Made by a program: the position numbers and the translations under genes
NCBI GenBank assembly: GCA_034620365.1
Contig: JAQGEQ010000011.1
Location: forward strand, 868,001-932,000
Source: Pegea sp. RAD2-039
Taxonomy: Eukaryota; Chordata; Thaliacea; Salpida; Salpidae
Direction: 5' to 3'
Length of the DNA stretch: 64,000 bases
Notes under the pieces: generated by a model
Told to the model about the DNA's origin: nothing
What the model saw: only the letters and a program-made list of their open reading frames with translations
Database searches by the model: none
Part shown: piece after piece, positions 3,601 through 64,000 of the stretch
Numbering within the stretch: position 1 is the first letter of the stretch
Layout of the letters: the number at the start of each line of letters is the position of its first letter

Positions 3601-5770
3601 AACTTTTGACAGAGATTAAATCTGGATGTGATAAAACGAAAACTAATCTTCGAAAGAGATTGGGATATATTTTGAAGAACTCCTACAATTCCATCTTCTG
3701 CAAGTAAGTCTTTCAAGTTGAATCAAGTTTTTTTTGAAACATTTTTTTCTAGAAATTCAATTAAAAATATTCTCGCAAATTCTGATCAAAACCTCAAACA
3801 TGCAACAATTACAAAAAAATATTTCATGAAAGTTTTCAACTCTATCAAAGATTTCAAAAAAACTGGAATCTTTATCGAGCAGCAAGATATTCCAGATACT
3901 ATCAATGAGATTCATCGAAGGTTTGTATCAACATCTTCAATTGATAAATATTTGCTGACTACTTCAAACTGGCAGATTTACAATCGATGTTTTTGGGGAG
4001 AAAAAAGAAGATGTTTTAGGAGAGAGGGTGAAGACTATTGAAGATATCAAATTAGGTTTATTAAAAATCATTTTGATCGTTGTCATGACTCAAGAAAGGA
4101 GTATTAAAAACCAAATCATTGTTAGTATCTCATTACTTATTCATCTTCATCTAATTTCCTCATTTACAGGCAAATGGAGTCTTACAACAGTTTGAAGAGC
4201 ATTTGATTATAAGATGCTGGAATTTTTTTAAATCAAGAAGTTGAGTTAAACGAATCACTTTCAAATCCTTAAGAAGTTTATTTTGTAGATTTTATTCCAA
4301 ATGAGTTTCGATATATCAGGAGGAAACATCAAAGTGATAATCGAAACAATTCGTTATTTTTACTCGAAAAATATTTCCAGTCAGTTTTTATTTCAACTTT
4401 TTCTTTTTTAACAAAACTTTTTTTCAAGGAATTTTCAAATGAAATCCGTCGAAAAATTATTAAAAGATTTCACCACAAGATCTGAAAAGTTAAGAGATCA
4501 GATCATATGTGATAAGTCCTCATCAGTGGCGGATGTCCTTACAATCTTAAGTACGATATTTATCATTCAATTATTCTTATTTATTGCTTTTTTTCGTAGC
4601 TTTTCTCACAGCTGGAAGCATTTTTCAAATCGAAATAAAACCGTGAGTTGAGTTTCAACATCAGAATTTCTAAAAAAAAATCTTTTAAAAGTCTTGAATT
4701 CTTCCCAGAAATCTTCAAATAGATGATTCAACTTTTCAAATTGTGACGTCATGTTCAGTCCTTCGTCATCACGTGACTCAAGTTACGAATTCAACAAATT
4801 TTTTTGAAGTTATCAGCATGTCTTCGAGCTCTCCCGAAATCAACATGGACGATGACGTCATAAGATTTATCATCAGCTGTTTGAAGAAAAGAAGAGAAAG
4901 TCATCCTCACATCGGTTCATTCACTTTTTGGTTTATTTAAATTAAAGTGATTTTTTGAAGGGATTTCATTTCTGAAAATGAAGAAAATTTGTCTCCGAAG
5001 AAAAATTGATGAAAAAAAATTCAATGAATCAATTGAAGAGCTGGTCAGATCTAAACAAATATTTGTCGTTGGTTTCAACAGGTAAAAATGGCTAAAAGCC
5101 ATTTTATCACCGATTATCATCGTTATTTTCAGGAGAAGATTAGTTTTGCGAGATGATGCGTCTGCATGGTTTGTTGATAGCTGGAAGGACGCCACCTGGT
5201 GAGATCTTTTTAAAATGATGTTTATAGTATAATTAAAATTTCTTCAGCTTTTTACGTCAACACAACAATATCATATGATGACGTCATCACTTTTGTTTTG
5301 TTTAGTGAAACTTTAGATGAAGAAAAGAAGTTTTTGTGTCGAAGTTGGCTTTCAATTGACGGAAATTTTGATTCAAACTCCTCAAAACGAATCTTCCTCA
5401 CGATCTTTCAATATGTAAATTAGATTAAATCTTTAATGTCTCAATTGAAGATTTGTTTCCAGGTTTTTTGGAATCCTTTTATTCAGATTAAATCAATCGA
5501 TCGCAAGTTTTCTGCTGTCATCAACAAAACTTCAATTCTGGAAATTATTCAGGTGACTTGTGTTCTACTTGCCAATAACCTCTTCTGATTGGCTGATAAT
5601 CTCAGAAATTCGTTAATTGTCAAATCTTTGAAAGACGAAGATGTAAAAGTGAAGTTGTGTGGGACTTTTTCTCCAAGTTTTCTCAGAGTGATTTGTATGA
5701 TGAAGATGAAGAAGATTACTTGTGTGTTTCACCTGGAGGATTCTATAAACTCTCAAATATCTTCAGTTGA
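697..5770 (+). CDS. GTF3C1: General transcription factor 3C polypeptide 1 (TFIIIC largest subunit), 5' partial
   Basis: Largest subunit of TFIIIC, which binds the B box of tRNA-type Pol III promoters in the nucleus. Exons I support: 697-886, 1292-1407, 1458-1559, 1619-1690, 1743-1810, 1865-1979, 2027-2136, 2191-2284, 2338-2479, 2532-2610, 2656-2782, 2830-2943, 2994-3494, 3549-3703, 3753-3920, 3976-4120, about 4170-4235, 4289-4379, about 4436-4554, about 4758-4913, 4961-5081, 5133-5198, 5306-5414, 5463-5552, 5606-5770. Apart from the region noted below, phases agree and most introns are about 50 nt. Diagnostic matches to the vertebrate protein are IPGDGLGACGFDSS at 2695-2735, a basic stretch (GGRGRKRK) at 2994, and a C-terminus containing SWLSIDG. 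The N-terminal half lies off-window. The exon chain is uncertain between 4170 and 4760, where I could not keep one frame. The basic linker is enlarged by a 15-copy heptad repeat. Confidence 0.92.
3063..3377 (+). repeat. 21-bp coding minisatellite, 15 heptads, in GTF3C1
   Basis: Fifteen tandem 21-bp units encode (A/V)-E-D-(G/E)-I-Q-(K/E). A/V and I are spaced 3 and 4 residues apart, the a/d pattern of an amphipathic helix or coiled coil, with mixed charges on the other faces. The array sits in the exon 2994-3494, straight after a lysine/arginine-rich stretch and before the conserved segment that restarts with FDRQDDEF. Unit length divisible by three keeps the frame at any copy number. The repeat leaves long open frames on both strands; these are by-products and not genes. 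Confidence 0.95.
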
Positions 5771-40588: not shown

Positions 40589-43500
40589 TCATACATAATA
40601 TTCTTTTTCATCCTTGCCAATAGGCCCGCCATTTCTTGGTATCATTTCATCACCTCCTTTGTTTATCATTTTTTTCTTGCTTTTTTCGTCATTTCGACCT
40701 TCACTGTCAGCGACGTTGTAAACATACCTCTCAACTCTTCTACCTCTCCCATTTTTACTTTTGTAGCAGTATATACAAGCAATTAGGCCAGCTACTGCAA
40801 GAGTTGCAGCAGAAGCAACTCCAGCAATCATGGCTCGCTTAATAGGTGCTAATGTAATAGGTATATTTCCAGTACCATTAACAATACCATCTAAAAGAAT
40901 TCATTTCCACCGTTTGTTGTTGGTCTTTATGTTAATAATATATATTTTTTTAATTAAACATTATTCTTAAAAAGTTACTTTATCCATTCTATTATATTAT
41001 TAAATAGATTTTGATTTCTAACTTTGTTGATTTTTTTTTCAAGTTTTAAAAAATGTTTTAATTTTATATTTATTTTGTGTATAAGCTTTCTTTGAAATTG
41101 ATAAGTCATAACTAACCATTATTACAACGACCAGCTTTGCAGGTTGTATCACCCAAAGTTGTCTATAAAAGATATTTAATGGTTTTAAAACTATAAAGTT
41201 GAGGTAAAGACTACCTCCAGTAGATTAAGATCATCTGAAGTAGGAAGTGGGGAAGAAACAAAAGGAGAAACTGTTGTCGCAGGTTCAGGGAAGCCAACGG
41301 TCTGCACATCACCAAAAGTTTTGACACTCTCATCATCTAAAAGTTTCAGAGTTTCAGATAAAGACTCAAATTTGGTTTGGTGTCTCACTTGAATTTAGCA
41401 ACTCGAAGGGTTTGACATCATTATAAAAAACACGAGACATTTTACCACGAAAAGGCATATCGATGGTGTAAGAAGTTGTGTTAGAATTACTGGGTTTGTA
41501 TTTGGGTGAAAGTATTCCACCAATTTCTATACTAGATTGGGTATTGAAAACGGTATTTATTGAATCTGCAGTTAGAATATAATTACAATGTTATGAAATA
41601 ATGTAGAAAATTGAAAGGAAAAAACTACTTTTCAGTCAGTTTTAAAAGACTTAACCTATTAACAAAGTAAAGTATATTTTTTGGTGATAACAGAAACTAT
41701 AAGTTCAAGGCAACAGTATACGAATTTCAGAAATTGTTCAAGTAGCTGCCTGATTTTATAAAGAATTCAAAAGAATGAAGTTCAGACTGTTTCTTCGTTT
41801 TTGATGTCTTAAGAAATCGTTCGAATGCTGATCAAACAATTGTTATCAAAGTTAAAAAAAATTGATTCCAAGGTTAATTTTAATTTTGTAACTTTTACAA
41901 ATGGTAGTCTCTTTTGTTTGAAAGAAGTTGTTTTATCATTTCTGATTGTTATTTGTGAAGCTGATGTCATTTTCATACATTTAAATCAGACAATATTTAT
42001 AGAAAAAATATTTAACAAGCTTTTACAAACTCTACAAATGGAATTATTTTTGTTTGTAATTTATAAAAGTAGAAGTTAAAGCTGTTATTACTTTTAAGAC
42101 AAAAATATGTTTGATTTTTTGCATTATATAGTATTTAATCATCTTAGGGTTAGTTAAATATTTACTCTTTGAAAATAAGCTTAAAGTTCAATGTTAAATC
42201 ATCTTTCAGATTACTTGTTATTGAAAAAGATGACAGATGAAATATGTTGAAGATATTTTGAAACAAAAAGACAATACTTGTCTAAAAAGTAATTTATACA
42301 TGCATATTAACTTATTTCAAAAATGTTAGTACTTGCAAGAGAAAATGAAGTTTGTTACACTGTTAGATTGGTTATTGTTTGCTTCGTACCGACCTTTATT
42401 GTTTAACCACGATTTCACTACTGGTTGCGTTACGGAGGGTATGGCTGCCATTACCAGGGCAGCCAGGGAATTCGAACCTCCTACATATAACAAGAATAAA
42501 AACGAGAAGACGTGAAAAGCACTACATATATTATATAGCGCGGGCAAACAAGCATTTGAAATTTTTTATGTTGCTGTTAGAACGAGTTAGTTAGTAAATC
42601 ATCACAATAAATACAAAATAGCTGCGTCTGTATTTTAATATTTACTTTGTTAGTTAGTTATGGGTTTGATCATGATTACTAAGCATTTGTGTGGCAAAAC
42701 ACCAAACAAAAACACAGACAACTATGTTTGGATGCTCTACATCAAAAAGAATTTGATATAATCTTAAAAAAAAACTATATCTTCTTTATCTCACATTCAA
42801 GATACTTTTTGGTAAATTGTGTTTTGTAAGATATATAAAAGGATGGATTAGTAATTAAAATCAAAACTGATAATCATTTCAGAAAGTTTATTTTTAGTAT
42901 TTTCAAAGTTTTCATTTGGGCCAGCTTATTTGCTACATTAATTCTTTTAATAAGTATTTTAAAATAACATATTTATCATGTAAATAGGTTTCTATTTTGT
43001 TTAACATTTTTCAATTAAACAAAACTAGTAACAAACGAATGACAACTTTTTGTAAAATTTCTTATGATTTTAAATAAATTTGTTTTTGTTATCTTAATTG
43101 CTAAGAGCCTAGTAAATCTTACACTCAATAGTTATCCTTAAAGTTATATGAGTTTTTATGGGAGCTTCTATTGAAATAATTTAGGACACATTTGATGAGG
43201 CACAAGAGTTTTATGAATTCTTTATCTTTGCAAGCTGATTAGTACTTTAAACCATTAAATTGTATTTTTCTGTTTGATCGATTGAGGAAAACTTTGAAGA
43301 TTAATTTCGTTTAGAGTTTTCATAAAATATTTCAAATTTTTGCTTTCAGATTTTTCTGCTTTACTACACTATAAAAAAGTTTGCTTAATATGTCTAGTTT
43401 TGAAAGTAAGTAAAACGAAAGTAAACTTTTAAAAAGTTTGTTTGGTAAATATCAAATATTTGTACTTATTTTAGATAATAGAAATAACTTTTTAGGATAT

Positions 43501-46500
43501 ATTTTTAGCTAAAACAGATTTAAAGCACTTCATTACTGGTTTCAAACTTACGTTCCTTCGACTTTCGAGGCGGCCAGTCATTCACTTGCATTGTAGCGTT
43601 TGTATAATGTCTTTTAATAGCAACATTGTGTAGATTACCATCAGCTACAGAAATCTCCTCTTGAAGTCGAATCTCTTTTACTCCCACATTATAAGTCAGA
43701 GTTAGTTTGCCGTTTTCCTGAGCAATACAACATGTTTAAACACCTTGGAAAAAACAAGTTTAATATTAATTTGAACAATGTGCTCATGCAAATTCTTCAC
43801 AGGCAAAAGGTGTTTTTTTGCACATTAAATTGATTATTTTGTGAAAATTTTTTATGGTAACAAAATGTCTCGGTACAAATTATAAAAACAAAGATCATGC
43901 AAAAATGAGTCTGCTCATCTATACAAGTACTAAGTAAAATAACTAAGTAAACCGCAAGATTATAAACTCATAAACATTTATATCGTTTGCAGTTTCTTTA
44001 GTCTTTTCTAAATTCTAAGCAGTAACTTCAACTGACTTTAGTTTTAATTATTCTATAACAAATTCATCAACAAAAAATTGTTTTCAAATCGTAGAAATAA
44101 GTTTGAAAAATATTTACTTGCGTAAAACTCAAATTATAAAAATATAAAACTAAAATGAATAATTGGAATTTAATTAAGTTGTAAGAAGGTTTCTTTTTAT
44201 TTTTTACTCTTGTTTATATTTGCAGTACAGAAAATTTAAAAATCCAACACAGAAAATTTGAAATATTGGAATATGTACTTATCAACTTTGCAATCATCAA
44301 TCTGAAAAATTTGTAACAAGATGGCGTATATGTAAATACCTCAAAAAAATAAGACTACAAACTCTTCATCAAATTTACACGTCATTTTTCCAGTCTTCTT
44401 TCGGCAGTTTTAATATTTCATTTTAAACAATACTTTTAATACCTTGCACCATACAAGTTTGAAAAAAAAAACAACTAAAATAATTGAAGATAAAAAATAT
44501 TTGATGAAAAAAGTTACAAGTTAAAATAAATTACAAAAGTTAATTAGATAGTTTCTATTTGATACGGTCAATTGAAAAAGCTGCTTTACTTAAACAGGTT
44601 TGGTCTTCTAATGTAATTCTTCAGTTTAATTGGCTAACCGATTTATGAAAACACATTTTAAGTTATAAATATAAGTTTCATTCAATTTAGTGGTAGCCAA
44701 TAAAATGCCCGAAATATTTTGACACGCAAAAATTTTTAGTTTTTAAAAAGAGCTTAAAAAGCTAAAAAAACAAATTAAAAGTTTTGCGAAAAGAGAGAAC
44801 TAAAAACTAAAGTAGAAATGAAAAAGTTTCAACACTAATGTTAGCTTAATTATTTTAAAATAAAAAATATATCTCCAATAATCTCTTTTTTAACAAATAC
44901 TTGCAATTGACAGCTGGTTCTTTCACCTGGTAGAAAATTGATCCAGCCGGCAGATGTAAACTAACTAGTAAATCAACCAGCATACTAACCAGAAAACTAG
45001 TCAATGCATTAGCCAGTATACCAAAAGGTAAACAAGCAAGTAGTAGCTAGTAAACCAATCGGTAAACCAGCTAGTGAAGAGCAAGAATTCAGTTTCAGCC
45101 AGCATACAAACACAGCCGCAACACAGCGAACAGCGAGAGAATATTTTGTAGCAACTTGACAAACTCTGCTTTTGTTTATCTACAACACTGACGACAAGAA
45201 TGCGCCGATGGTTCGTTGCAGCTAGCCTTGTGACTCTTGCTTATATCGAGAATACAATGCACAACAAGAGCTGTCTCACAAGTTGCAACTTCATGAATTC
45301 ACGAGAAGTTAGAGATCGGATAAGAACAATTGTTGAGTTTGGTTCCATTGAGTCGTTAGTTTCAAATGACACATTCAACGTATCAACTCTTGAACTAATC
45401 CATTTCTGGCTTGATGCTTCTTTTTTTTCTAGACTTCCAAGAACCACTCCACGATTGAAGACAACATATTCTCTGCTCATCTGATTAGCTGCTGAGGGAT
45501 AGAAACGGTTTTTACTACGATGTTACAAAAGCGCTGTAGATAAACATCCTGAAATTCCTGCCTCGCTTCCCTAACCTTCGAATATCTGATCTGTTTTCGC
45601 TCTCAAGTATGTTATGACGTCTACACTTGGCTCAATTACTCACGATTGTTAGTTTGAAAAAGTCACCCAAAGGTTCCTTGCCCTTGACGAAGACCAGGGC
45701 TGCATCCTTGGACGTGGTTTGAAACATCAAGTTCAGAGTATCAGTCCGTGTGCTGGGGTATTTGGACCAGTGGTAGATGACAACTCCACCCGAAGTAGAG
45801 GTGTTTGCGCCAAACAAACACCCTGGTCCGTCTGCAGTGTGACGTCATCACGGCGTACGTACATCGATCAGTTAATTGATATTTATTTATCGAAAAGTTT
45901 AAAAGTTTCTTGATTTTAGTGAAGATTTTAGTGACTTTGGTGGTGCTTATTGCCAAATGTTGATAAATTTGTTTCTTTTTTACATAATGTTTAATTAATT
46001 AGTGATTTAATGTTTATTTACATGTAAAATACTTATCAATTTTTTAAGTGATAAAAGTTATACTAAAACATGCTGTGAGATGATCTTATCATTTTGTTAA
46101 ACAGATATTTAATTTATCTTTGACAATGCCAAGCAGAAAGTCTAGTAAGATGACTGAGGGATTCAATTGGGCTTTCAACAGATTTCAATTTGTTAGCAAC
46201 TTGCTTGAATTTTGTTGTACATGCAAAGCTAGGCTATCTTTAATAACCACAACATTCAGCTTATACTAAAAATTTGATTAAAAATGTTTTACTTATGCTG
46301 AAAAACGCAAAATGTTTAAGAGACAAATTGCTTTTAGATATTCTTAAGAATGATACAAATAGATTTGATTTAAATTTAGAATTAGTTGTGGTACAGAAAA
46401 ACTAGAGAAAACTATTTGATGGACTTAGCACTTGTTTACCTGCTGCTTGTCCTTTACATCTACTATCGTCTTGTGAAGTAATTGTACTTTTTTAGCAAAT

Positions 46501-49500
46501 TTAGGTTTTAGATTTTCTTGGTTTAAATCAAAGCAAAGAGCAGAAGGAAAAAATGTTTTCTATGTTGGCTTTATGGAAGATAACTTAAGAAAAGTGAGTT
46601 TTTAGTTGTATATTTAAAATACTTTCAATGTTCTTTCACAAAACAGAAGATTGAAAAAGTTAGTCCCAACATGCGATTGACTAAACACCAAAAATATAAA
46701 AATCATAAACAACATACAACAACATGCTTCTCACCAGATACTTGACTGAAATCTAATAAAAAAATTATACTTCAATAAAAAAAGTTGAAATTTAATGTAA
46801 ACCCAGGTAAAAACTTGCTGCAAAAATCAGATATATTTTCAATAGTAAAGGACCAAGTTTGATAGACGGGTTTTATTTCAAAAACATAAATCATTTTTTG
46901 GCTTCTGAATATTTAAGATATCTTTATAGGTGATTTTGAAAAGTATAATTGTTAGACCAAATGAATTCACTTATAACAAATTCTGATCGAATTAAAATGT
47001 AGGTACGGCTTTAAATGTAAAACAAACATAATCAAGCAACTGATTAAGTTTTTATTACAAATTGTTATCACTTTTTCAAAAAAAGGTAAAAAAAACTTTA
47101 AAATTAGTTCGATTTTTCTATGAAAAATTGATTAGTCTTAAATTTCAGAATTTTGTATTACTTATCAACTATTAACTATTAATTACCTTCAATTATTTTA
47201 AGCTCTTCATGAATTTAACAAGTCATTGAGTTACAATATCTTAGATAAAATATTATCATTAAAATGAAACCAGCTCATAATGGATGTTAAATTAACTCTT
47301 TTCCAAATCTGGTATCAACAAACTAAATGGCCTCATCAATTCTAGTAGATATAATCAAATTAATCTTCAACATACTTTTAATTTTGCAGAATATTAACTA
47401 GAGTTTTACTGACTAAGTTTAAATGCGCCACAAATATGTTTAAATTGAAAATGATAAATCAAATTTTATCTGCCAGCAGTAAAAAATCTTGACTAGAGCA
47501 CTCGGATTTCAGATATGATTTGCTGAAAAAAAGAAGAACTCACGTTCACTGCAGGTTTCACCTGCATATACAGTAGTACTACAATCACATCTGTATCCTC
47601 TCCATCTTCGCTGACATTCTCCTCCGTTGATACACTTGCACTTCGCCTGGTAAGGTCCTGTGACAACAATCCACGAACACAATCACATTCAAACGCGGGT
47701 TGCATGACAACAACAAGAAAGCAAACAATGTAGAAGAAATAGGTGCAAGAGGAGGCTCTGGGTGAAGTTATTTCTGATTAGATAAGATAACTTTCAAGAT
47801 AAGTTCTAAACGTTTAATGTTTTTAAACTGAGTTGCAGCCCATAAATATCCATAAAAAAGCAAATTACAATTTGTACATATTAAAGACTTTTATAAATCA
47901 AACTTATAGATTATATTTTAATACTTTCTTTTAGTCTTGTAATTTTTCAATAATTTCAAAACTGAAACTTTAATGATATTTTAGTATAAATGTAAAAAAC
48001 TACGCCTTACAACTTGCACCTTTCTTCAACAAAGACATTTTAGTTCATGCAAATCACCCAATCAAAAGTGACGAAGCAAATCGCAGATGTTTATTTCGTC
48101 TTATTATTGAATTTATCATTTTGTCATAAGCATATATATACAAATATATATAAGTTTTCGGGCAACATTCACCAAACCAAATAACTCAAATCTTAAAATT
48201 AACATTTTATAGGTGGCTCAATTTGTGGTATCATGTTTATAAACCCCTTTGACTCAAAATAAGCCTACAAATCGGGCTGTTGCCAACTACTCGCAGTGTG
48301 AGTGTGATGGAGATCAACAATTAACAACTCACCTTGACATCCTTGTAATATAGTTCCATCTACTGGTCTTCGGTAGACACGGTTAGACATCAAATTTATT
48401 AATTTGTTATTGACTACAAATGAGCCGAAACAACCCTCGTATCCATTTCTAGAATACAGATTCTTGGGAAGTTTACTCGAGTACATATCGTTGTCAACCC
48501 CTCCAATGTAAAGGGACTCTGTAAGCACCATCATTTAATAATTGCTTAACAATTTGTATTTAGTGGTTAAAGTTACCATTTAAATATGGGGTAACTAATG
48601 CAGGGAATTCCATCGCTTTTGTGTTATTGTTAATCCACAATCTATAACAATTAGACGGCAACCTTTGGATTTTCACTTGATGCCATCTGTTGTTGTTGAT
48701 TGCGACGTCTACAGTTAAAGACTGCCAAAAATATTTGTTTCTTTAATCAGTTTCATGAAGTAAATTCTACACCAAAAAGAATCTTATTGACTCTGTACTT
48801 ACTTCAGTCTTCCCATTGGCAGCAACAAAGAAAAATAACTTTCCATTCATCAATTCAACTGCGATATAATCATTAGTTGAACCTCTATTAAACAAGATGA
48901 TTCCATCTGATACAATAGTACGAAGACTGAACGAGATGCTGAGACTTCTGCATTAAAATCATTTCATTAATTTTTAACTACTTTTTTTCTCCAGCAGTTA
49001 CCCGCCAGCTCCCAGGGCCGCTATTTTAACAAAGCTTTTAGATTCAACAAATGAGACTGGATAAGCCACTACTTCTTTTTCTTGAAGCCACGAGCTGTTA
49101 TACGAACAAGAGACTTCTCCGTAGAAACAGCTGATCAAACAAAAGCGATAATCTTCTACAAAAGTCAAATTTCTAACAACCTATCCATTAGATATTTTCC
49201 ATCAAGGACAAAGTTCTCAACTAGTCCAATTAGTGGGCCAAACAGACCATCAACACTGTTTTTTGGTGAAATAATTTTTCCAATGTGTAATTGGTCATAA
49301 GCAAGTGAAGTGTGGCCCTTTCTTAGGTCCACTTTTATGTAAGAAAATTTAGCCATTATCTAATAATTAATGAGGAAAGTAAGGGACTTACGAGCCACAA
49401 TATCTCCATCCACCTCTAATATCAGCTTTCGACTTCTTCTATGGACTCGAACCACGTGCCAGTTACCGTCAGCCAACCCTGAGCCAGCTACTAACGACTG

Positions 49501-61500: not shown

Positions 61501-64000
61501 TTTAATTATTTTGTTTGATTAAACAAGAAATAATACTTATATACCTCATGATAAGCTAATTAAAAGCAATTTAGATACTTTTATTCTTGTAGTTTATGTT
61601 TGAATAAAAAAAAGTTACAACATTGAACTACATTGTAGACTTGATGTTGACTTTAATCACTTTGTAAGGAGCAAGCTTCAAAACAACTGTGCTTGATTAA
61701 TTTGTTTCACTTAAGCGATGTATTTGAAAGTTAAACTTTGCGACAACAAATGTTTGTTGTAACAAATTTAAATCTTAATTCAATTTAAATTTTGTCTCAG
61801 TAGATTCGATATTCATAAAAATATCACTTCAATTAGAATAAACCTTTTCAATTTGTATCTATTCTAATAGTAGGATGATGAATTGATCAAAACTGAAGCT
61901 TTAAACTAAGAAATGTAATTTCACTTTTTACTTAAGCTAAAGACTTAACTCTCAAATTTATTCATTTTTTTACAAATATTAAATGTGATAGTTATGAAAA
62001 GATAAAAAACTATTTCATTGGCAAAAATATTTTAACTTATAGTTTAATCAAGTAGCAAATCTGTCTGTTGAAGCACTGAAATCTCTGAATTAAAGTCCCA
62101 CCAAATAAGTTGGTATCCCACAAAAAAGTTTATATAGAAGCTACTTTGTTCAATTCTTCAACTCAACACTTTTTAATGACAAAACATTGATTGATGAAAA
62201 ATGACTCTTACTGATCTGTGAGACTAACCGAAATTATACTCGGTGATTGGGACCTGAAGTTGATTAGGATTCGCTTGCTTGTCTTAATGTACAACAGAAT
62301 TTCTTCTTTAATGATAGTGGGTTACCCTTACATCAAATCTAATCTTCTGATAAAAACGATTTGAAATCAATCTTTTAAACAAAAATCAGATAGTTTAGGT
62401 GCTATATTAGTCAAAAATTATTTCATAGTTGGTTTATCATTTACCAATCATGACGTCATTTCAGTTGCTAGCCAGAAAGATTAGAGAAGTTGGAATATAT
62501 TCTTGATGCAAAAGAACATATGACCTTCAAGTTTCTCAAATAAAGTTTAAGAAGCTATGTCACATTACAAAAAGATTATCTCTAACAAATTAACAGATCA
62601 ATGATGTACAACGCTTAGTTTTGTGAAAGTCCTATAGTGTCATTATCTCATAGATATGCAAAAATGTAATATCACTTTTTTAATAACGAGTTTGCTACTG
62701 ACTTATGATTTGAGTGAAGCTTGCTATATTCTTTCATTTCCTGAAAAACTTGTTTCAAGTCTTCGGAAAATTTTCTACATACATAACAAAAATGTCGGGA
62801 AAATAACATAAATATTTTCTTGGTACCATAACGTGGTTATTTTTGTTTGCATATAAGAGCATCTTTTAGCCTGAACTAATAAGCTTGTATCTAAGTCATT
62901 CAAGCTTGACTTGAAACAGAAAAGATATCAAAACTTTCAAAGTTTATGGAAATACGAAAAAGTAACAACATGATAATGTTTTGGTTCAAAACAAAACAGT
63001 AGAAAATATTTATTCAAAATATCTAATAACTCAGATTATTCCAAAATTTTCTGAACAATTCAAATTCTCCTACTTGGTAAAATTAGAAATGAGGATCAAT
63101 CAGTGTTGATAGAGATTAAAGAGCTTTCAAACTTGCAAAAATATGTTCAAATATAAAAAAAGGGCCCTGGTCAATATTTTTAAATGATAGAATGAACAAT
63201 TCTAAGCCGGCGTTTGATTTATTGAAAAGGATTCGTTATTCTTGAACAGCATAAAGCTAGTAGAGCCAAAATTGAATCAATGAAAACAAGAAAAAGTCAT
63301 TAACCTAATATGAACTCTATCAGTAGCATTAGACAGAAACTAATGCTGAGAAAACATGATAACATCCAATAAGTCTTTACTATTTGCTTCATCGCATTGA
63401 TGTTGAACAATTTCGTTTGATGAATACAATACTTAAAAGTGAATTAAAAAAAATAAAAATCTATCAAAATCAGTTGTTTAATTTGAGCTTTTTGAATTTT
63501 ATTTCTTTTCTTTTGATAAATTAACTTTTTAAAAACTTCTGCATGCTGCAAATTTCTCTTGATCAGAAAACTGATTCAAAATAGATAATTAGTTTGTGAT
63601 TAATATTTTTGGAAAAACTCAAACAAATTTTGAGATGTTCAAAAGTTGCTGAAGATTAAATCTTAAAAGTTGTTTTGAATCTTTATAAAGTTTGAAAAGA
63701 GGTTTAGATGAGGTTTTGAAGAGCAACAAATGTGCTTTCGTCATCTTTAGAGTTGATCTAACATCCAAACTTTCATCTCGACTCTATTATCAAACTTTAA
63801 CTTTTCTAACTGATCATCAATTATTAAAAGCTTCGATCTTGCCACTGATGACGTCATCAGAGTGTCGACAACTCACCTGGAGGGGGCACAAGCTTCATGG
63901 AGCTCTCCGAACATCACATGATCACTTTTTTCCATTTTCATCTCTTCACCGTTCATCGCGATTCGTCGCAGAGAGCCTCTGAAGCGATTTTTAATGAGAT
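40589..64000 (-). CDS. NRXN: Neurexin, alpha type, 5' partial
   Basis: Presynaptic adhesion receptor. Exons: 64000-63877 (end of LNS1), 60328-60231 (EGF-A), 59588-59544 (SS1), 57460-57320, 57257-57097, 55221-55057, 54996-54760, 54711-54601, 54551-54432, 54377-54225 (LNS2, LNS3), 52579-52390 (EGF-B), 51909-51796, 50920-50828, 50518-50486 (SS3), 49511-49392, 49331-49181, 49130-49002, 48947-48803, 48721-48577, 48518-48333 (LNS4, LNS5), 47657-47544 (EGF-C), 45831-45644 or 45491-45280 (alternative LNS6 start), 43717-43552, 42480-42394 (SS4), 41565-41389 (LNS6), 41336-41215, 41162-41117 (stalk), 40890-40589 (membrane helix and tail). All phases agree and give about 1286 residues. The tail ends KDEKEYYV, the PDZ ligand of neurexins. 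[15 protein letters not shown] [11 protein letters not shown] in LNS2 is diagnostic. The signal peptide and most of LNS1 are off-window. Confidence 0.96.
42394..42480 (-). other. Neurexin SS4 cassette exon
   Basis: An 87-nt phase 1-1 exon lies in the intron after exon 43717-43552. It has acceptor ATATGTAG and donor GTCGGT and encodes 29 residues in frame. Aligned without gaps to the vertebrate SS4 insert, its second half keeps IP, then VV, then WL and KG at identical spacing ([17 protein letters not shown] here). It enters after [10 protein letters not shown] and leaves before [11 protein letters not shown], exactly where SS4 interrupts vertebrate LNS6. In vertebrates SS4 inclusion changes binding to neuroligins, LRRTMs and cerebellins. 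Confidence 0.88.
44905..45085 (+). repeat. Degenerate short repeat, ACCAG/CTAGTAAACC type
   Basis: About 180 nt of the neurexin intron downstream of exon b consist of loosely repeated words such as AACTAGTAAA, AACCAG and CTAGTAAACCA at 12-20 nt spacing. No coding sense and no defined unit length. Confidence 0.5.
45280..45491 (-). other. LNS6 first exon, diverged duplicate (alternative exon b)
   Basis: 212-nt exon 152 nt downstream of exon a, again phase 1 in and phase 0 out, with tandem acceptor CAGCAG (start at 45491 or 45488) and donor GTGAGA. Its translation follows the LNS strand pattern of exon a: [14 protein letters not shown] against [14 protein letters not shown], then [18 protein letters not shown] against ALVFVKG through FFKLTI. 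Ser-Arg-Glu replaces the Leu-Gly-Asp of exon a. It carries an NST glycosylation sequon. Because each exon is 2 modulo 3 in length, joining both would shift the frame. Confidence 0.75.
45644..45831 (-). other. LNS6 first exon, canonical copy (alternative exon a)
   Basis: 188-nt exon entering in phase 1 and leaving in phase 0 (acceptor CTGCAG, donor GTGAGT). Its translation contains [13 protein letters not shown] and [11 protein letters not shown], matching the start of vertebrate LNS6, including the Gly-Asp just before the hydrophobic strand where vertebrate neurexin-1beta holds Ca2+-binding Asp137. EGF-C lies upstream at 47657-47544. Confidence 0.92.
50486..50518 (-). other. 33-nt neurexin microexon at the SS3 position in LNS4
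   Basis: Phase 1-1 exon with acceptor TCATTACAG and donor GTAAGT, encoding 11 residues rich in Asp and Pro ([11 protein letters not shown]). It falls between the strand ending MLTIDI and the one with [12 protein letters not shown], the place where vertebrate SS3 inserts its short peptide. It can be skipped without changing frame. Confidence 0.82.
56634..57096. promoter_or_regulatory. GC-rich, CpG-containing island inside the neurexin LNS2 intron
   Basis: In a gene otherwise about 70% AT, this stretch is clearly GC-rich and dense in CG dinucleotides. It holds two TGACGTCA palindromes (56634-56641, 56656-56663) and two GATTGG boxes (near 56812 and 56903). It also has two CTCF-like cores on the plus strand (TAGGTGGCGC at 56767-56776, TCACTAGGTGGCGA at 56937-56950) and a GAC-type triplet run near 56970-56995. 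It starts right at the donor of exon 57257-57097, at the intron that would carry SS2. It may be an internal promoter, an insulator or an inserted element. No start site can be shown. Confidence 0.4.
59544..59588 (-). other. 45-nt neurexin microexon at the SS1 position
   Basis: Phase 1-1 exon (acceptor ATCCTCAG, donor GTAAGA) encoding [15 protein letters not shown], placed between EGF-A (60328-60231) and the first LNS2 exon (57460-57320). Vertebrate SS1 cassettes sit at the same junction. Length divisible by three allows skipping. Confidence 0.78.
60329..63876 (-). other. Neurexin intron between LNS1 and EGF-A
   Basis: 3.5 kb intron. The phases of its flanking exons agree (phase 2) and no further exon or known element is evident inside. 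One TGACGTCA lies at 62451-62458 and another at 63849-63856 close to the donor. Confidence 0.6.

Follow-up and report, generated by a model that had tools for sequence, protein, structure and literature searches.

The window, by which we mean the whole 64,000-nucleotide stretch of Pegea sp. DNA that was analysed, belongs to contig C13 of a 105.7-Mb genome and carries a neurexin gene on its minus strand, the strand of the exons, the intron and the hairpin arms described below. The predicted product presents the domain order LNS1, EGF-A, LNS2, LNS3, EGF-B, LNS4, LNS5, EGF-C, LNS6, transmembrane helix and cytoplasmic tail. LNS1 is encoded by the first coding exon, of which 63877..64000 falls inside the window; the predicted ATG of this exon lies beyond the window, at 64559 in extended coordinates. 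The nine upstream exons join in frame and free of stops; the gene model is partial for LNS4, for LNS5 and for the stretch leading from LNS6 to the last exon. From EGF-C onwards, the gene comprises a 114-nt EGF-C exon ending in phase 1 (47544..47657), two exons that each encode the beginning of LNS6 (here termed a and b), a 166-nt exon C starting in phase 0 and encoding the Val154 equivalent (43552..43717), an 87-nt exon D (42394..42480), an exon E that completes LNS6 and encodes VFNTQ, with the equivalents of Ile236 and Asn238 (41389..41565), and a last coding stretch for the transmembrane helix and a tail ending in EYYV (40589..40890; stop codon at 40591-40589, 5' border placed by eye).

The LNS/EGF architecture, the transmembrane helix and the PDZ-binding tail identify this gene, at the level of sequence, as a classical (alpha) neurexin. 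The best matches of its LNS6 are neurexin chains: against the single-domain neurexin-2beta chain 3mw4, exons a and C joined gave an E-value of 2.6e-21 and exons b and C one of 3.5e-10, and the LNS6 stretch of neurexin-1alpha (3qcw) scored 63.0 bits with a+C and 31.4 bits with b+C, exon C contributing to both queries in each comparison. The Pfam model Laminin_G_2 scored 79.6 bits with the a form and 73.1 bits with the b form. A genome search with a+C returned its own location plus one weak place on contig C21 (E 0.03), and apart from the latter this search gave no second LNS6-like match; by this criterion only, neurexin is apparently single-copy here. A search of the protein library with the full-length neurexin model yielded 528 candidates, of which none reached an E-value of 0.001.

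Exon D, which begins and ends in phase 1, constitutes an SS4-type cassette of LNS6, and we take it, by homology, to occupy the position of the vertebrate SS4 insert. The reading frame holds with or without it. The introns that flank it measure 1071 and 828 bases; those around the AS4 exon of C. intestinalis have been reported as shorter, at 441 and 430 bases (PMC3933685).

Exons a (188 nt, 45644..45831) and b (212 nt, 45280..45491) sit between the EGF-C exon and exon C, separated from each other by a 152-nt intron (45492..45643). Exon a starts after CTGCAG with ACGGAC and ends in ACAATC before GTGAGT, and exon b starts after CCTCAG with CAGCTA and ends in CAACTT before GTGAGA, so that both conform to the GT-AG rule; the acceptor of exon b is a tandem CAGCAG (45488-45491) that could gain or lose one residue. 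Exon a is vertebrate-like (PSTRTD, LGD), and exon b presents the diverged counterparts SSRVD and SRE. The first-pass annotation had described these neighbouring exons, at 45831-45644 and 45491-45280, as encoding the same first strands of LNS6, and coordinates, splice dinucleotides and homology all agree with that description.

The same annotation had proposed that both exons run from phase 1 to phase 0 and that using both, or neither, would break the frame, and translations of the joined exons bear this out. The combinations EGF-C+a+C+E and EGF-C+b+C+E are open, each with or without exon D, and EGF-C+a+b+C+E and EGF-C+C+E both meet stops; productive mRNA thus requires exactly one member of the pair. 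Since 152 nt is enough length for an intron to be spliced, exclusion of one exon by the other would not be steric. Furthermore, the switch had been held to be separate from SS4, which the sequence supports: the SS4-type cassette is an exon of its own (42480-42394), located downstream of the pair.

The alignment of the two exons scores 55, a value reached by none of 5000 shuffles (mean 22.5, standard deviation 4.65, maximum 46). By the same measure, exon b scores 37 with the reference LNS6 and 21-31 with the LNS1-5 starts of the same gene, and because it is closer to exon a than to any of these, exon b is, judged from sequence similarity, a strongly diverged tandem duplicate of exon a. Derivation from another LNS domain was considered and ruled out on the same scores (21-31 with the LNS1-5 starts, 55 with exon a). 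The match of exon b to the typed LNS6 reference alone is weak, with 101 of 5000 shuffles reaching its score. In a permissive tblastn search of the 103.5 kb of extended sequence, each exon, apart from itself, matched its partner best, over a stretch of 16 residues (E 0.052 and 0.070), and no third copy was recognised there. A genome search with exon b returned one match at E-values up to 10, which was exon b itself; single-exon genome searches each missed the partner exon, so a diverged third copy elsewhere could escape them too.

To place the exchanged segment on the ligand-binding surface, each exon was aligned to neurexin-1alpha with Asp137 as the anchor, using three gap costs plus MAFFT, and positions were taken from PMC2570956, which gives 13 neurexin residues buried by neuroligin, plus the calcium ligands. 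Seven of these 13 residues fall within the swapped exon (Asn103, Pro106, Ser107, Thr108, Arg109, Ser132 and Leu135), as does the calcium ligand Asp137. Exon a retains six of these eight rim positions in all four alignments, differing at Asn103Ser and Ser132Lys. Exon b retains two, Ser107 and Arg109, in all four alignments, the other six being changed or unaligned: Thr108 becomes Ser, Ser132 becomes Leu, Asp137 becomes Glu, Pro106 is Ile or unaligned, and Asn103 and Leu135, together with the neighbouring Gly136, meet a gap or another residue depending on the method. Exon b also encodes three N-X-S/T sequons, compared with one in exon a.

The ligand face of a neurexin using exon b had been predicted to be altered or absent; the rim counts are in keeping with alteration (six of eight positions in b against two of eight in a, on the positions taken from that source) and do not extend to absence. 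Likewise, the contrast drawn between LGD in exon a and SRE in exon b is correct as to sequence, with the qualification that Asp is replaced by Glu rather than simply lost. At the four calcium ligands Asp137, Val154, Ile236 and Asn238, isoform a would present Asp, Val, Val and Asn, and isoform b Glu, Val, Val and Asn (residues of exon E read by eye). The FNTQ strand in which the calcium-ligating Asn had been said to be retained is present in exon 41565-41389, and both Val154 and the VFN segment of the Ile236/Asn238 strand come from exons common to the two isoforms. Since Glu could still ligate calcium and the remaining ligands are shared, it was too strong to claim that the calcium site is lost or absent.

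The rim changes alone are no proof of lost binding, since honeybee neurexin also deviates at several of these sites (PMC2570956). Read by eye in exon E, the position of vertebrate Arg232, which forms a salt bridge with neuroligin, is Ser in both isoforms, so that vertebrate-style neuroligin binding is itself an assumption here. A fair statement is that exon b appears to encode a remodelled rim whose dependence on calcium is uncertain, rather than a proven calcium-free form.

The splice signals of the two exons differ. Scored with a home-made matrix of a generic kind, exon a has an acceptor of 0.9 and exon b one of 6.0; neither donor passes a score of 2, and several other exons of the gene likewise list no donor. 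A predicted hairpin flanks exon a: its 5' arm (45834..45848) overlaps the region of that exon's 3' splice site, and its 3' arm (45614..45631) corresponds to bases 13-30 of the a-b intron. Computed from this single sequence, the duplex of 45848-45834 with 45631-45614 has a predicted energy of -28.9 kcal/mol (shuffle mean -17.9), with 7 of 2000 shuffles being as stable, and the same test applied to 14 other exons, one of them with an unverified 5' border, gave 16 of 200 as its most extreme value. The minimum-energy fold of the exon a region includes the hairpin stem; the fold of the region as a whole is ordinary (z -0.88, 38 of 200 shuffles).

The hairpin has as its core the CRE-like palindrome TGACGTCA, which occurs 17 times in the window against 0.45 expected, at 4744, 13116, 45840, 54411 and 63849 among other places; over the 103.5 kb of extended sequence the count is 22. 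Given the ordinary whole-region fold and this over-representation of the core, we keep as a lead only the idea that the hairpin may hide the 3' splice site of exon a. Pairing of the a-b intron with its neighbouring introns was also considered and fell within the range of 30 shuffles, at -47.5 (shuffle minima with mean -42.5 and lowest -50.9) and -55.0 (mean -45.4, lowest -57.5).

The explanation that we favour, and regard as probable on these sequence data, is that exons a and b are mutually exclusive and act as a switch of the LNS6 ligand rim. Provided that both exons reach mRNA, each transcript would carry either a or b, and products containing both or skipping both would be removed through frame disruption and nonsense-mediated decay. 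The choice would exchange the rim of LNS6 that likely faces neuroligin and calcium. Isoform a would bind a neuroligin-type partner in a calcium-dependent, vertebrate manner, and isoform b would differ in partner choice or calcium dependence, as suggested by the change of Asp137 to Glu, the replacement of Leu135-Gly136, the change at Pro106, the different loop lengths and the additional sequons. Tentatively, the 5' arm of the hairpin, lying over the weak acceptor of exon a, would gate that exon, the acceptor of exon b being the stronger of the two.

The main alternative, which we consider unlikely, is that exon b is a dead copy, silenced not long ago or never in use, whose frame is open by chance. 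Its divergence from exon a is indeed large, 13 of 39 aligned residues being identical, and the low donor scores of both exons with the home-made matrix would suit a dead copy. A frame of 70 codons would, on the other hand, stay open by chance in only 0.5% of cases at the composition of exon b and 0.26% at that of the introns, and when exon a was allowed to decay neutrally to the identity level of exon b, 94 of 5000 simulated copies remained open. Codon positions point the same way. The two exons share 13 first, 27 second and 14 third bases over their 39 aligned codons, and random pairings reached these values in 1133, 0 and 187 of 5000 trials. In a control in which codon-shuffled versions of exon b were realigned, 7 of 2000 reached 27 identities at position 2, so this test is supportive rather than overwhelming. 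The conservation of second positions, the strong acceptor and the kept phase all speak against a silenced exon.

A second sequence of exon b bears on the same alternative. The ENA-derived protein P0001 covers residues 4-70 of exon b plus 12 residues read into the intron, and differs from our sequence at 2 of the 67 residues inside the exon and at 1 of the 12 beyond it, with its frame intact; it probably derives from another individual or a close relative. The protein library that yielded P0001 offered no candidate for exon a, and this recovery of exon b only is itself compatible with a dead duplicate. The first-pass annotation had suggested a search for the same pair in related genomes, of which exon b has thus been found and exon a has no candidate in that source, and had named stop codons of exon b in related species as the sign of a dead duplicate. 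The intact copy in P0001, a single second source, weakens that reading.

Mutually exclusive use of a and b as a coding switch also has to be weighed against a mainly regulatory role, in which exon b would serve as a poison exon whose joining to exon a causes a frameshift and lowers neurexin levels, its coding value being secondary. The stops that follow from a+b joining and from double skipping fit such a role, as does the spliceable length of the 152-nt intron between the two exons. A poison exon would, however, need neither an open, LNS-like frame in the exact phase required to replace exon a nor conserved second codon positions, and we judge this role improbable. The least probable alternative, and one to which we give little credence, is that promoters rather than splicing set the choice, with a short, beta-neurexin-like form using one of the exons: the vertebrate beta form has its own first exon, which joins the first LNS6 exon at this same position of the gene, and a CRE-like TGACGTCA ends 8 bases upstream of exon a, but a scan at crude thresholds gave no candidate, in any of the three introns surrounding exons a and b, for an exon that encodes a signal peptide and has a phase-1 donor.

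Among the known systems closest to the proposed a/b switch is SS4 (AS4), likewise an alternative exon of LNS6, which tunes binding to neuroligin, cerebellin and dystroglycan (PMC9812575) and has been reported in a sea squirt (PMC3933685). Unlike SS4, where a loop is added or left out in frame, the a/b pair would exchange the first strands and the rim, and omission of both exons breaks the frame. Tandem homologous exons used one at a time are also familiar from Dscam and muscle myosin, which differ in having larger arrays and in being other genes. Drosophila Neurexin IV, a CASPR-type septate-junction protein and not a classical neurexin, carries a mutually exclusive pair of its own (exons 3 and 4) outside LNS6. 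The pair described here differs in belonging to LNS6 of a classical neurexin; the isoforms of Neurexin IV exons 3 and 4 differ in adhesive properties (PMC11893892). Honeybee neurexin I provides a further invertebrate case of alternative splicing in LNS domains, with many splice variants; according to PMC2570956, these differ from the present pair in arising by exon skipping and by internal sites that truncate LNS domains, and the terms 'mutually exclusive' and 'duplicated exon' do not occur in its main text. The human neurexin genes are said in a passage of PMC1397879 to undergo mutually exclusive splicing, with at most three variants; that passage describes no duplication of an LNS6 exon.

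Tandem mutually exclusive exons are common and neurexin splicing is famous; what appears to be new is the LNS6 exon pair, and a limited search of the open-access literature turned up no description of a rim exon duplicated in LNS6. If the exchange of first strands is real, it would alter the ligand face itself, where SS4 only inserts or omits a loop. A chordate with a simple nervous system would then allow partner choice to be tested, and exon duplication would stand as a route to diversity of synaptic recognition beside the extra genes and SS4 of vertebrates. A more far-reaching version holds that the pair adds to SS4 another, independent recognition switch, gated by the hairpin, which exchanges half of the neuroligin/calcium rim and expands the ligand repertoire of a single gene by exon duplication, as opposed to the gene duplication of vertebrates; we regard this combined proposal as speculative, and more doubtful than not.

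Beyond the window, the same contig also carries a neuroligin-like gene, at C13:722048-733462. Of its 154 PDB matches 60 were listed, and the best 14 of these were all neuroligins, and it presents Gly at the position of the esterase catalytic Ser (FGSGAGG). LRRTM has been reported as absent from the two Ciona species searched (PMC3933685). Elsewhere in the genome, C14:71908-75000 contains cellulose-synthase-like (PF13632/PF03552) and GH6 (PF01341) open frames on the same strand, about 1.5 kb apart; cellulose synthase joined to GH6 is a hallmark of tunicates, so that the two neighbouring frames suggest a tunicate genome. A search for mitochondrial COX1 gave no match. Finally, two long, degenerate repeat stretches lie upstream of the neurexin start, beyond the window, at 85606-91368 and 98676-102839 in extended coordinates; they consist of QKLDFLLLQLQK- and SRSFNFYR-type repeats and are open in more than one frame.
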